In this document: positions 12,445-18,784 of the stretch, piece after piece
How the letters are laid out: every line of letters begins with the position of its first letter
Position numbering within the stretch: the stretch's first letter is position 1
Assembly (NCBI GenBank): GCA_019636015.1
Contig: JAHBYJ010000001.1
Location: 558,001 to 622,000, forward strand
Direction: 5' to 3'
Source: Parvibaculaceae bacterium
Lineage (GTDB): Bacteria > Pseudomonadota > Alphaproteobacteria > Parvibaculales > Parvibaculaceae
Length of the DNA: 64,000 bases
Notes under the pieces: generated by a model
What the model saw: only the letters and a program-made list of their open reading frames with translations
Database searches by the model: none
What the model was told of the DNA's origin: nothing
Made by a program: the position numbers and the translations under genes

Positions 12445-13149
12445 TTGAACGGCGAAAGCGACATCCCGCGCCGTCACGTCTATGGGCGCACCAAGGGCAA
12501 GACCCTGAAGCCGCGTCAGGCGAATTTGATGGAGACCCTCTTTCCGAGGGTCTCCATTTCGCTTGATGAGGCGGTGATCGAGCCGAAGACGCTTTTCGGC
12601 GATGTGGATGAGGTCTGGCTCGAAGTGGGCTTCGGCGGCGGCGAACATCTCGCGCATCAAGCCGAAACCCATCCGCGCGTCGGCATCATGGGCTGCGAGC
12701 CGTTCCTCAACGGCGTCGCAAAGCTCGTTTCCGAGATCCATGAGCGCGATCTCGCGAATGTCCGCATATTGAACGACGATGCGCGCTTCCTGCTGGAGCG
12801 GCTTGCGCCCTCGAGCCTCGCCCGCGTCTTCATCCTCTATCCCGATCCCTGGCCGAAAAAGCGCCATAACAAGCGCCGCTTCATAAATGAGGAGACGCTG
12901 GGCTTCCTCGCCAGCGCCCTCCGCAAGGGTGGCGAGCTGCGCTTTGCCTCCGATATCCCCGATTACATCGCCTGGACGCTCGCTCATCTGAGCCGCTTCA
13001 ACCGCGAAAAGGGCGAGACCTTCCGCTGGACCGCCGAACGGGCCGAAGACTGGCGCAGACCTTACGAAGGCTGGCCCGGCACCCGTTATGAGGCGAAAGC
13101 CATCCGCGAGGGCCGCACCCCCTGCTACCTCGCCTTCGAGCGCCTCTGA
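12445..13149 (+). CDS. trmB: tRNA (guanine-N7-)-methyltransferase TrmB
   Basis: A 234-residue SAM-dependent methyltransferase. It has the Rossmann start LEVGFGGGEHLAHQA (about residues 53-67), the acidic GCEPF loop, and the diagnostic FILYPDPWPKKRHNKRRF (about residues 130-147) holding the catalytic region, followed by FASDIPDY. It forms m7G46 in tRNA. The start is TTG 12445 with GGGGC upstream. An intrinsic-type terminator lies 68 bp after the stop, but a strong promoter begins between the stop and that terminator. Confidence 0.96.
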   Translation: MNGESDIPRRHVYGRTKGKTLKPRQANLMETLFPRVSISLDEAVIEPKTLFGDVDEVWLEVGFGGGEHLAHQAETHPRVGIMGCEPFLNGVAKLVSEIHERDLANVRILNDDARFLLERLAPSSLARVFILYPDPWPKKRHNKRRFINEETLGFLASALRKGGELRFASDIPDYIAWTLAHLSRFNREKGETFRWTAERAEDWRRPYEGWPGTRYEAKAIREGRTPCYLAFERL

Positions 13150-13157
13150 GCCGCCCC

Positions 13158-13186
13158 TTGCCCTTGGGGTGAAAGGGGTCTATATA
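13158..13186 (+). promoter_or_regulatory. Promoter of the rimP-nusA-infB operon
   Basis: TTGCCC (13158-13163), a 17-bp spacer and TATATA (13181-13186) form a near-consensus housekeeping promoter just after the trmB stop. The -10 lies inside a perfect 12-bp palindrome GTCTATATAGAC (13178-13189), which could be a repressor site. The expected transcription start is about 13193, only some 24 nt before a terminator hairpin. Confidence 0.6.
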
Positions 13187-13216
13187 GACGCCAACAAGTC
13201 AGCGACGCTCCAGAGA

Positions 13217-13252
13217 GTGGGCTGTCTCCGGAAACGGGGGCCCGCTTTTTTT
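13217..13252 (+). terminator. Terminator-like hairpin in the rimP leader (possible attenuator)
   Basis: The stem pairs GTGGGC (13217-13222) with GCCCGC (13240-13245), continued by an inner CTCC/GGGG helix around a GAAA-type loop, and is followed by seven T residues (13246-13252). It closes off trmB transcription but also lies downstream of the rimP promoter. Flanking it, GCTCCAG (13207-13213) is exactly complementary to CTGGAGC (13258-13264), which holds the rimP ribosome site GGAG. Confidence 0.7.
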
Positions 13253-13269
13253 GTTATCTGGAGCCCCGT

Positions 13270-13908
13270 TTGACATCCATCTGGAGTGCGGCCTTGGCCT
13301 CGACGGGTCTCGACAGGAAAAGGGAAGAAGCGGCGGATGCGCTCGATACGCATCTCGTCGCGCCGCATGGCGTCCCCCGCAAGATCTTCGATCTCCTGCG
13401 CGGCCCCGCCGAAGGCGCGGGCTTCGAAATCGTGCGCATCCGCTTCGGCCTGCAGGACGGGCACACGCTGCAGATCATGGCCGAGCGCGCCGACGGTTCC
13501 ATGTCGGTGGAGGATTGCGAGGAGCTTTCGCGCATCCTCTCCGCCGTGCTCGATGTCGAGGACCCGATCCCCGGCGAATACAATCTCGAGGTTTCATCCG
13601 CCGGCATCGACCGGCCGCTGACGCGGCTGAAGGATTTCGAACGCTGGCAGGGCTTCGATGCGAAGATCGAACTCTCCGAAGCCGTCGGCGGCCGCAAGCG
13701 TTTCCGCGGTCTGCTGCAGGGCGCCGAGGATGGCGAGATCCTCATCGAAAGCGAAGTCGAAGGATTTTCGGAGCCGCAGGTTCTCGGCCTGCCGTTCCAG
13801 AAGGTGAGCGAGGCGAAGCTCGTGATGAGCGACGACCTCATTAGGGAAAGTCTCAAAAGACAGGGCCCGGCCGATGACGCGCCGGACGCCTCCTCTGACG
13901 GAGAATAG
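13270..13908 (+). CDS. rimP: Ribosome maturation factor RimP
   Basis: A 212-residue RimP. It has the N-terminal alpha/beta domain with GFEIVRIRFGLQDGHTLQIM, the middle SVEDCEELSRILSAVLDVEDPIPGEYNLEVSSAGIDRPL region (cited in parts; PGEY-x-LEVSSPG is the family signature, here SAG), and a C-terminal Sm-like domain. It assists 30S assembly. The start is TTG 13270, supported by GGAG 6 nt upstream. The start of a rimP-nusA-infB operon is conserved throughout bacteria. The ribosome site can pair with leader bases 13207-13213. Confidence 0.93.
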   Translation: MTSIWSAALASTGLDRKREEAADALDTHLVAPHGVPRKIFDLLRGPAEGAGFEIVRIRFGLQDGHTLQIMAERADGSMSVEDCEELSRILSAVLDVEDPIPGEYNLEVSSAGIDRPLTRLKDFERWQGFDAKIELSEAVGGRKRFRGLLQGAEDGEILIESEVEGFSEPQVLGLPFQKVSEAKLVMSDDLIRESLKRQGPADDAPDASSDGE

Positions 13909-13911
13909 AGA

Positions 13912-15528
13912 ATGGCACCGGCAGTAAGCGCCAACCGGCTTGAACTGTTGCAGATCGCTGATGCGGTCGCGCGTGAAAAGTCGATCGACCGCGAAGTCGT
14001 GATCGAGGCGATGGCGGAGGCGATCCAGAAGGCGGCCCGCTCGCGCTATGGCGCCGAAAACGAAATCCGCGCCCGCATCAATCCGCAGACCGGCGAAATC
14101 CGCCTCGTCCGTCTTCTCGAAGTGGTCGACCAGGTCGAGAACGACGCGGTGCAGATCGATCTGAAGTCCGCGCAGCGCCGCAACCCGGCCGCGCAGACCG
14201 GCGACCTCATCGAGGACGAACTGCCGCCCGTCGATTTCGGCCGCATCGCCGCCCAGACCGCAAAGCAGGTCATCGTGCAGAAAGTGCGCGACGCCGAGCG
14301 CGAGCGCCAGTACGACGAATACAAGGACCGCATCGGCGAGATCGTGAACGGCATCGTGAAGCGCGTCGAATACGGCAATGTCATCGTCGATCTCGGCCGT
14401 GGCGAAGCCATCGTCCGTCGCGACGAACTCCTGCCGCGCGAAACCTTCCGCAATGGCGACCGCATTCGCGCCTATATCTATGACGTGCGCCGCGAACAGC
14501 GCGGTCCGCAAATTTTCCTCTCGCGTTCGCATCCCCAGTTCATGGCCAAGCTCTTCGGCCAGGAAGTGCCGGAAATCTATGACGGCATCATCGAGATCCG
14601 CGCCGTCGCGCGCGATCCCGGCAGCCGCGCCAAGATCGCCGTCATCTCGAACGACAGCTCCATCGATCCGGTCGGCGCCTGCGTCGGCATGCGCGGCAGC
14701 CGCGTCCAGGCGGTGGTGAACGAGCTTCAGGGCGAAAAGATCGACATCATCCAGTGGTCGCCCGATGCGGCGACCTTCATCGTGAACGCGCTGGCGCCTG
14801 CCGAAGTCGTCAAGGTCGTGCTCGATGAAGACACGCAGCGCATCGAGGTCGTCGTGCCCGACGATCAGCTCTCCCTCGCCATCGGCCGCCGCGGCCAGAA
14901 TGTGCGCCTTGCCTCGCAGCTTACCGGCTGGGATATCGACATCCTGACCGAAGCCGAGGAAAGCGAGCGCCGCCAGGCAGAGTTCCTGAGCCGTACGACG
15001 ATCTTCGCCGAGGCGCTTGATGTGGACGAAATGATCGCCCAGCTTCTCGCCTCCGAAGGCTTCGCCTCGATCGAGGAAGTGGCCTATGTCGATCTCGACG
15101 AAATCGCCGATATCGAAGGTTTCGACGAGGATACGGCGCAGGAAATCCAGAGCCGCGCGCTCGAATATATCGAGCGCCAGAACGCCGAATATGACGAGAA
15201 GCGCCGTGCGCTGGGCGTCGCCGACGAGCTTGGCGAGGTCGAAGGCGTGACGCCGAAGATGCTTGCCGCCTTTGGCGAGAACGACGTGAAGACGGTCGAG
15301 GACCTCGCCGGCTGCGCCACCGACGATCTTATCGGCTGGAACGAGACCGTGAATGGCGAGCGCAAGCACCAGCAGGGCATTCTCGAAGGCTTCGATCTGA
15401 CGGCCGACGACGCGAACGACATCATCATGAGCGCGCGCCTCAAGGCGGGCTGGATCACCGAAGCCGATCTCGCCCCGCAGGAAGAAGAAGACGGAGAGGA
15501 CGCGGACGAGCTTGGTGAAGAAGCCTGA
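13912..15528 (+). CDS. nusA: Transcription termination/antitermination protein NusA
   Basis: A 538-residue NusA. The N-terminal domain (residues 1-130) binds RNA polymerase. An S1 domain follows (GEIVNGIVKRVEYGNVIVDLG, cited as pattern), then KH1 and KH2 domains (GACVGMRGSRVQAVVNEL and AIGRRGQNVRLASQLTGW), and two helix-hairpin-helix AR repeats at the C-terminus, ending in an acidic tail. It modulates pausing, intrinsic termination and antitermination. It starts 3 bp after rimP and overlaps the next gene by 17 bases. Its own leader carries a terminator hairpin, so autoregulation is plausible. Confidence 0.98.
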   Translation: MAPAVSANRLELLQIADAVAREKSIDREVVIEAMAEAIQKAARSRYGAENEIRARINPQTGEIRLVRLLEVVDQVENDAVQIDLKSAQRRNPAAQTGDLIEDELPPVDFGRIAAQTAKQVIVQKVRDAERERQYDEYKDRIGEIVNGIVKRVEYGNVIVDLGRGEAIVRRDELLPRETFRNGDRIRAYIYDVRREQRGPQIFLSRSHPQFMAKLFGQEVPEIYDGIIEIRAVARDPGSRAKIAVISNDSSIDPVGACVGMRGSRVQAVVNELQGEKIDIIQWSPDAATFIVNALAPAEVVKVVLDEDTQRIEVVVPDDQLSLAIGRRGQNVRLASQLTGWDIDILTEAEESERRQAEFLSRTTIFAEALDVDEMIAQLLASEGFASIEEVAYVDLDEIADIEGFDEDTAQEIQSRALEYIERQNAEYDEKRRALGVADELGEVEGVTPKMLAAFGENDVKTVEDLAGCATDDLIGWNETVNGERKHQQGILEGFDLTADDANDIIMSARLKAGWITEADLAPQEEEDGEDADELGEEA

Positions 15529-16186: not shown

Positions 16187-18784
16187 ATGACCGATCAGGC
16201 CGATACGAGCGAACGCAAACCGAAAGCCGCAGGCGGGAAAACCCTGAGCCTCAAGCGGACGGTGGAATCTGGCCATGTACGCCAGAATTTTTCGCATGGA
16301 CGCTCGAAGTCGGTCGTCGTCGAGAAAAAGAAGAAGCGTACGCTGAAGACGGACGGCACGCCCGCGCCGGTCGAGGAAAAGGCGAAACCGGTCGCGCCGG
16401 CCAAGGAAGCGCCGGCCGCCGCTGCCGCGCCCGCACCTGCGCCCGCGAAGAAGGAAGCCGCCCCCGCCGCCGAGAAGAAGCAGGCCCCGCGCGCCCGCTC
16501 CGGTGTCGTGCTGCGCACGCTCACCGAAGAAGAAAAGGCCGCCCGCGCGCTGGCGCTCGACAGCGCCCGCGAGCGCGAGGGCGAGGATCGCCGCCGGGCC
16601 GAGGAAGAAGCGCGCCGCTTCGCCGAGGAAGATGCGCGCCGCGAGGCCGAGCGCAACGCCGCCGCCGCCCGCGCAACGGAGGAAGCCGCCCGTCTTGCCG
16701 CCGAGCAGGAAGCGCGCGCTCGCTCCGCCGAGGATGCGAAGCGCCGCACTGCCACCGACGCCGATCGCCCCGCACCCCGCGCCGCCGTCAAGGAAGTCGC
16801 GGTCGAGGATGGCGACGAGGAAGAAAAGCCGAAGCGCAGCGCCGGTCATGCGGCGCCGAAGCAGCCTGCCGTCCGCAGGGGCGAAGAGCGCCGCCGCGGC
16901 AAGCTCACCATCACCAAGGCTTTCGACGACGATAGCGGGCGTCAGCGCTCGCTCGCTTCGATGCGCCGCCGCGTGGAGCGCGAGCGCAAGAAGCATATGG
17001 GCCAGATGGACGCGCCGCAGAAGATCGTGCGCGACGTCGTCATCCCGGAAATCATCACCATCCAGGAACTCGCGAACCGCATGGCGGAGCGCGCGGTGGA
17101 CGTCATCAAGATTCTGATGAAGCAGGGCATCATGCTGAAGATCACCGATGTGATCGACAGCGACACCGCCCAGCTCGTCGCCGAGGAAATGGGCCATACC
17201 GTCAGGCGCGTGGCCGAGTCGGACGTCGAGGAAGGTCTTGTCGGCGAGGACGATGCGGCGGAGCTGAAGCAGCCCCGCGCGCCGGTCGTCACCGTCATGG
17301 GTCACGTCGACCACGGCAAGACCTCGCTTCTCGACGCATTGCGCAAGACCGACGTCGCCGCCGGCGAAGCGGGCGGCATCACCCAGCATATCGGCGCCTA
17401 TCAGGTGACGCTCGGCTCGGGCGACCGCATCACCTTCCTCGATACGCCGGGCCACGCCGCCTTCACCTCCATGCGCGCCCGTGGCGCCAAGGTGACGGAT
17501 ATCGTGGTGCTGGTCGTTGCCGCCGATGACGGCGTCATGCCGCAGACGATCGAAGCGATCAGCCATGCGAAGGCCGCAGGCGTGCCGATGATCGTCGCCA
17601 TCAACAAGATGGACAAGCCGGAAGCAGAGCCCTCCCGCGTGAAGAACGAACTGCTGCAGCATGAAGTCGTGGTCGAGGATTTCGGCGGCGATGTCATGGC
17701 GGTGGAAATTTCCGCAAAGAGCGGCATGGGCCTCGACAAGCTCGAGGAAGCGATCCTGCTGCAGGCCGAAGTGCTCGAACTGCGCGCCAATCCGGATCGT
17801 TCGGCCGAAGGCATCATCGTCGAAGCGAAGCTCGACAAGGGCCGCGGTCCTGTCGGCACCGTCCTCATCGAGCGCGGCACGCTGCGCGTCGGCGACATCA
17901 TCGTGGCCGGCACCGAATGGGGCCGTGTCCGCGCGCTGATCAACGATCGCGGCGAGAATGTTCAGGCCGCCGGTCCCTCGCAGCCGGTCGAAGTGCTCGG
18001 CCTTGGCGGCGCACCGGAAGCAGGCGACGTCATGAGCGTCGTCGAGAACGAAGCGCGTGCCCGCGAGATCACGGATTACCGTCAGCGCGTGCGCCGCGAC
18101 AAGCGCGTCGGCACGGGCAACCGCACCTCGCTCGACCAGATGCTGTCGCAGCTCAAGGAGCAGGACAAGAAAGAGCTGCCGATCGTCGTCAAGGCGGACG
18201 TGCAGGGCTCGGCCGAAGCGATCGTGCAGGCGCTCGAAAAGCTCGGCACCGACGAAGTCACCGCCCGCGTCATTCATGTCGGCGTCGGCGGCGTCACGGA
18301 GTCGGACGTCACGCTCGCCACCGCCTCGCGCGCGCCGATCATCGGCTTCAACGTCCGCGCCAATTCCCAGGCGCGCGATGCCGCGCGTCAGGACGGCGTC
18401 GAAATCCGCTACTACTCGGTCATCTACGATCTGGTGGACGACATCAAGGCGGCGCTTTCCGGCATGCTCTCGCCGGAACTGCGCGAGACCTTCCTCGGCA
18501 ATGCCGAAATCCTGGAAATCTTCAACATTTCCAAGACCGGCAAGGTCGCAGGCTGCCGCGTCACCGAAGGCGTGGTGCGCCGCGGTTCGCATGTCCGCCT
18601 GATCCGCGACGACGTCGTGATCCACGAAGGCAAGCTCTCGACCCTGAAGCGCTTCAAGGACGAAGTGAAGGAAGTGCAGTCCGGTCAGGAATGCGGCATG
18701 GCCTTCGAGAATTATCAGGACATGCGCAAGGGCGACGTCATCGAATGTTTCGATGTCGAGGTGGTGAAGCGCAGCCTCGATTGA
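16187..18784 (+). CDS. infB: Translation initiation factor IF-2
   Basis: An 865-residue IF-2. The first 280 residues are a low-complexity Ala/Glu/Lys/Arg-rich region with long helical [16 protein letters not shown]-type stretches. An IF2_N module follows ([22 protein letters not shown], cited as pattern). The GTPase domain has GHVDHGKTS (G1), DTPGHAAF (G3) and NKMDK (G4), and is followed by domains II-IV. It delivers initiator tRNA to the 30S subunit. It starts 12 bp after ylxR. A double-hairpin repeat lies in the 94-bp gap before rbfA. Confidence 0.98.

Follow-up and report, generated by a model that had tools for sequence, protein, structure and literature searches.

The DNA upstream of the rimP-nusA operon probably carries a rimP-leader transcription attenuator. 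Its predicted promoter and terminator, and the rimP start codon proposed here, are supported by comparison between genomes; we infer that termination occurs in vivo, with NusA as a plausible effector. The window, that is, the whole stretch of 64 000 nucleotides analysed (G000:C1:558001-622000), is part of a genome of 2.88 Mb, and the nearest named relatives of its RimP were Parvibaculum genomes, with a top identity of 98%. The gene order deduced from reading frames was metK, trmB, rimP, nusA, ylxR-like, infB, rbfA, truB, rpsO and pnp, where metK, the ylxR-like gene, infB, rbfA, truB, rpsO and pnp are presumed identities based on their own sequences and their order. The features discussed below are as follows.

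12445..13149, plus strand: trmB, upstream and co-directional (Pfam Methyltransf_4)
13157..13186, plus strand: predicted promoter, CTTGCC (13157-13162), 17 nt, CTATAT (13180-13185), from sequence and conservation
13193..13216, plus strand: short 5' leader, AACAAGTCAGCGACGCTCCAGAGA, conserved within the short-leader clade (two alignments, of 17 and of 15 leaders)
13207..13214, plus strand: 5' strand of putative helix H1, GCTCCAGA, pairing with the segment just 3' of the T tract better than shuffled partners do
13216..13252, plus strand: predicted intrinsic terminator of rimP-leader type, from folds, conservation, class-wide design and its single copy in the genome
13257..13264, plus strand: 3' strand of putative helix H1, TCTGGAGC, holding a decoy GGAG (13260-13263)
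13283..13286, plus strand: predicted Shine-Dalgarno sequence of rimP, GGAG (in TCTGGAG, 13280-13286), conserved in short-leader genomes
13294..13908, plus strand: rimP, 204 amino acids from TTG 13294, the start being assigned by comparison (Pfam RimP_N and DUF150_C)
13912..15528, plus strand: nusA, second gene of the operon (Pfam NusA_N, S1 and KH_5)
16187-18784: infB-like frame, from reading frames

A generic consensus scan detected no promoter-like site at the locus, and a generic scan for terminators gave sites no more numerous than in shuffled sequence; with such scans at chance level a single sequence says little, and it is comparison that decides. The set of genomes searched for the host RimP contained 26 of the same genus, with RimP identity extending down to ~67%, and we compared their leaders. 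The promoter, as CTTGC-N-spacer 17 to 18-TATA[TA], was present in 26/26 of these leaders, the window included, its hexamers and spacing being constant while the letters of the spacer varied. An earlier note on this DNA had described the same promoter as TTGCCC (13158-13163), 17 bases and TATATA (13181-13186), a description that agreed with the sequence and with this conservation. From the position of the promoter, transcription is expected to start at ~13192-13194.

Downstream of the promoter, an outer stem of GTGGGC (13217-13222) and GCCCGC (13240-13245) enclosed an inner stem, CTCCG/CGGGG, with a GAAA loop, and a tract of seven T (T7, 13246-13252) followed directly on the 3' side, so hairpin and T tract were found where the earlier note had placed them. 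Across the same 26 genomes, 38 of the 40 columns of the hairpin block were invariant, including the GAAA loop and a bulge. Beyond the genus, the outer stem GTGGG/CCCGC and T7 were retained and variation was confined to the inner part of the hairpin, its stem and loop. A scan for a seven-pair stem across the class Alphaproteobacteria identified a GTGGGC...GCCC[AG]C-T hairpin ahead of rimP in 63 of 70 loci, and several positions of the terminator showed compensatory pairs; the count is rough, because the register of the outermost pairs is not the same at every locus. In a separate scan, a terminator of the same design preceded rimP at 24 of 31 class-level loci. Within the 2.88 Mb of the host genome, the motif GTGGGC-N4 to 24-GCCCRC-T6 had one match and the reversed control none.

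The hairpin could also be a plain 3' terminator belonging to the metK-trmB operon, one that lies by chance 3' of the rimP promoter and has no part in the regulation of rimP. A co-directional trmB is indeed the upstream neighbour of rimP in most relatives, and in the window its stop codon lies only 8 nt 5' of the -35 hexamer. However, the terminator is 3' of the conserved promoter, so that every rimP transcript must cross it, and the genus-invariant loop and bulge exceed the needs of a plain terminator. The terminator was also retained at three loci where the upstream gene is divergent, encoding an EamA transporter (L069), a predicted membrane protein without Pfam match (L070) and a GAF-GGDEF protein (L063). 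The presence of the terminator beside divergent genes, together with a promoter on its 5' side, favours premature termination of rimP transcripts, and we regard a plain metK-trmB terminator as distinctly unlikely.

The rimP-leader was reported as the most widespread attenuator by Naville and Gautheret (2010), who gave its stem as GGGc...gCCC and suggested NusA as the effector (PMC2965389). The host locus agrees with that description in its site ahead of rimP-nusA-infB, in the 5' UTR of rimP; in an intrinsic terminator with a GGGc(...)gCCC stem and a T tract; in a distance to the gene of 41 nt, from the end of T7 (13252) to TTG 13294, within the range of 4 to 130 nt; in a promoter 5' of the terminator, recognized from sequence alone (26/26); and in the lack of a visible antiterminator. 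It differs in the GAAA-capped inner hairpin, frozen across the genus, and in the possible helix H1. As no antiterminator was found at the leader, a fixed, NusA-independent leak is possible. In Bacillus subtilis, NusA autoregulates by stimulating termination in its own leader (reviewed in PMC12288461), which is 180 nt long (PMC2965389). In both systems the nusA operon carries an intrinsic terminator in its leader and encodes NusA, a protein that promotes termination, but regulation was established by experiment in B. subtilis and is deduced here, and B. subtilis belongs to another phylum and has the longer leader. In Escherichia coli, two terminators and RNase III sites lie upstream of rimP, and NusA controls its own synthesis (PMC6511841). 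The gammaproteobacterial Rfam family rimP (RF01770, 102 positions) shares with the host locus the gene and the general idea of a terminator, whereas no tandem upstream terminator was visible in the host; its model matched E. coli and not the host genome, where it stayed below the gathering cut-off. No Rfam family reached the gathering cut-off at the locus, and the sole weak match, DUF3800-VII (E 0.34), was set aside as a generic resemblance between terminators. The literature searched contained no dedicated description of a rimP-leader attenuator in the group of the host.

In several relatives the leader contains a GCTCT core that resembles part of boxA, the element of Nus-factor leaders of rrn operons. 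The boxA of the family, however, is (T/C)GCTCTTTGACA, to which the host leader GCTCCAGAG has no match, and a boxA reading of GCTCT was ruled out on this ground. The rrn comparison rests on one genome (G027), the 16S gene search in eight genomes having been mostly empty. Where the host contig ends, an exact TGCTCTTTGACA was found on the minus strand (G000:C1:128-139); it is probably the boxA of an rRNA operon at which the assembly breaks. Longer leaders precede rimP in the relatives L019, L020, L022, L025, L028 and L034-L040; in these a conserved CACATAGC or CACATAAC stands ahead of the terminator, next to a small hairpin that varies (CGAAG/CTTCG, GCAGGC/GCCTG or CTGAC/GTCAG). The conserved element had no match in the one rrn leader. 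The longer leaders also contain CTCACATAGC, for which a resemblance to the NusA boxC element was unsupported, as ACATAG, CTCACA and CAATAG were absent from that rrn leader.

The longest open frame of rimP begins at TTG 13270. At this codon an in-frame TGA occurs in L005, L006 and L009, with one a codon later in L007; in L003, the RimP of which is 98% identical, this position falls out of frame, and in L013 the codon is TCG. An in-frame GGAG-N6 to 8-TTG (13283-13296) was kept in 17/17 short-leader genomes. Because this arrangement is retained and the 13270 codon is disrupted in relatives, translation of rimP probably starts at TTG 13294, 24 bases 3' of TTG 13270, and the longest-frame call would be eight codons too long. 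The GGAG at 13260-13263 is therefore not the predicted ribosome site of rimP. The decoy and the true Shine-Dalgarno sequence are parts of a direct repeat, ATCTGGAG, at 13256-13263 and 13279-13286, 23 nt apart, and both copies can pair with the leader CTCCAGA in the host strain.

The exact complementarity that the earlier note had pointed out between GCTCCAG (13207-13213) and CTGGAGC (13258-13264) is real and forms the core of the putative helix H1. In the genus, the leader paired with the first 24 bases after T7 at a mean z of -1.75 against dinucleotide-shuffled partners, compared with mean z between -0.44 and +0.55 for control windows located later or upstream. In the fixed register 85% of cells were paired, against 22-62% when the strands were slid. 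The 5' strand of H1 is itself nearly invariant, and compensatory changes in the fixed register were few, 46 of 500 shuffles reaching the observed covariation score; a permutation within the genus gave 6/5000, a figure inflated by relatedness. Covariation in the leaders of relatives, as envisaged in the earlier note, was seen class-wide in the terminator, but sparsely in the GCTCCAG/CTGGAGC helix. Among the long-leader relatives the permutation was not significant (1871/20000), and L019, L022, L028 and L034 have at the equivalent place an uninterrupted helix, 11 to 13 pairs long. H1 is plausibly a lineage-specific helix that would enclose the terminator in the read-through RNA. Conservation of GTTATCTGG (13253-13261), just 3' of the T tract, extended over several genera in the family, even where pairing with the leader was weak.

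Two further roles for this pairing were weighed. According to the earlier note, pairing of GCUCCAG with CUGGAGC conceals the ribosome site of rimP in read-through RNA, a proposal with which both the exact 7-base complementarity and the presence of the helix in the predicted minimum-energy fold agree. The GGAG involved, however, is the decoy and not the site conserved in the 17 short-leader genomes, and the start codon it would serve is the one disrupted in the relatives named above. In predicted folds of the read-through RNA of the window, opening the decoy cost 5.6 kcal/mol with the leader and 3.2 without it, whereas opening the true site cost 1.8 with the leader and 3.4 without it, the leader pairing covering the decoy and leaving the true site open. 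In L005, L007, L008 and L014 the true site was predicted to be 1 to 2 kcal/mol harder to open with the leader than without it. With the ribosome site of rimP outside the paired segment, the locus was not classed as a case of ribosome-site sequestration, which we consider very improbable.

H1 and the terminator might also form one long read-through stem cut by RNase III, in addition to attenuation, on the pattern of the metY-rimP-nusA leader of E. coli. The predicted fold stacks H1 on the stem of the terminator, and the corresponding E. coli leader has two RNase III sites (PMC6511841). Set against this, H1 was absent from class-level loci (mean z -0.05), and its compensatory changes are few. 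RNase III disfavours bulges such as that of ~9 to 11 nt formed by the T tract on the 3' side of the stem. Cleavage of this kind is unlikely.

In the attenuator model that we prefer, RNA polymerase would initiate at ~13193 and transcribe ~60 nt before reaching the GGGC...GCCC terminator, where some polymerases would halt at 13246-13252 and the remainder continue into rimP-nusA-infB. A terminated RNA of ~60 nt (13193 to 13252) is predicted from this anatomy, in agreement with the earlier note. By precedent, NusA would increase the stopped fraction, so that the operon would limit its own output, and transcripts that come from metK-trmB would end at the same terminator. The leader of a read-through RNA would pair with bases 3' of the T tract to form H1, closing a 5' stem-loop that would leave the true ribosome site of rimP (13283-13296) outside.

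The rimP-nusA leader is a further example of a known and widespread type of attenuator, and no new kind of regulation is proposed. With it, the rimP-leader attenuator is seen, strongly conserved, across the Alphaproteobacteria; the old idea that in distant phyla the NusA operon limits itself by means of its own terminator gains support; and the likely start codon of rimP in Parvibaculum is corrected. The only element here that might be new is H1, as a lineage-specific helix. It is conceivable, though improbable, that AGUCAGCGACGCUC, the leader strand in Parvibaculum, serves two purposes, as the beginning of the ~60-nt terminated RNA and, in read-through RNA, as one strand of a helix that spans the terminator and alters the processing or translation of rimP-nusA; if true, this double use of AGUCAGCGACGCUC would constitute a second, RNA-level layer of control above the attenuator.
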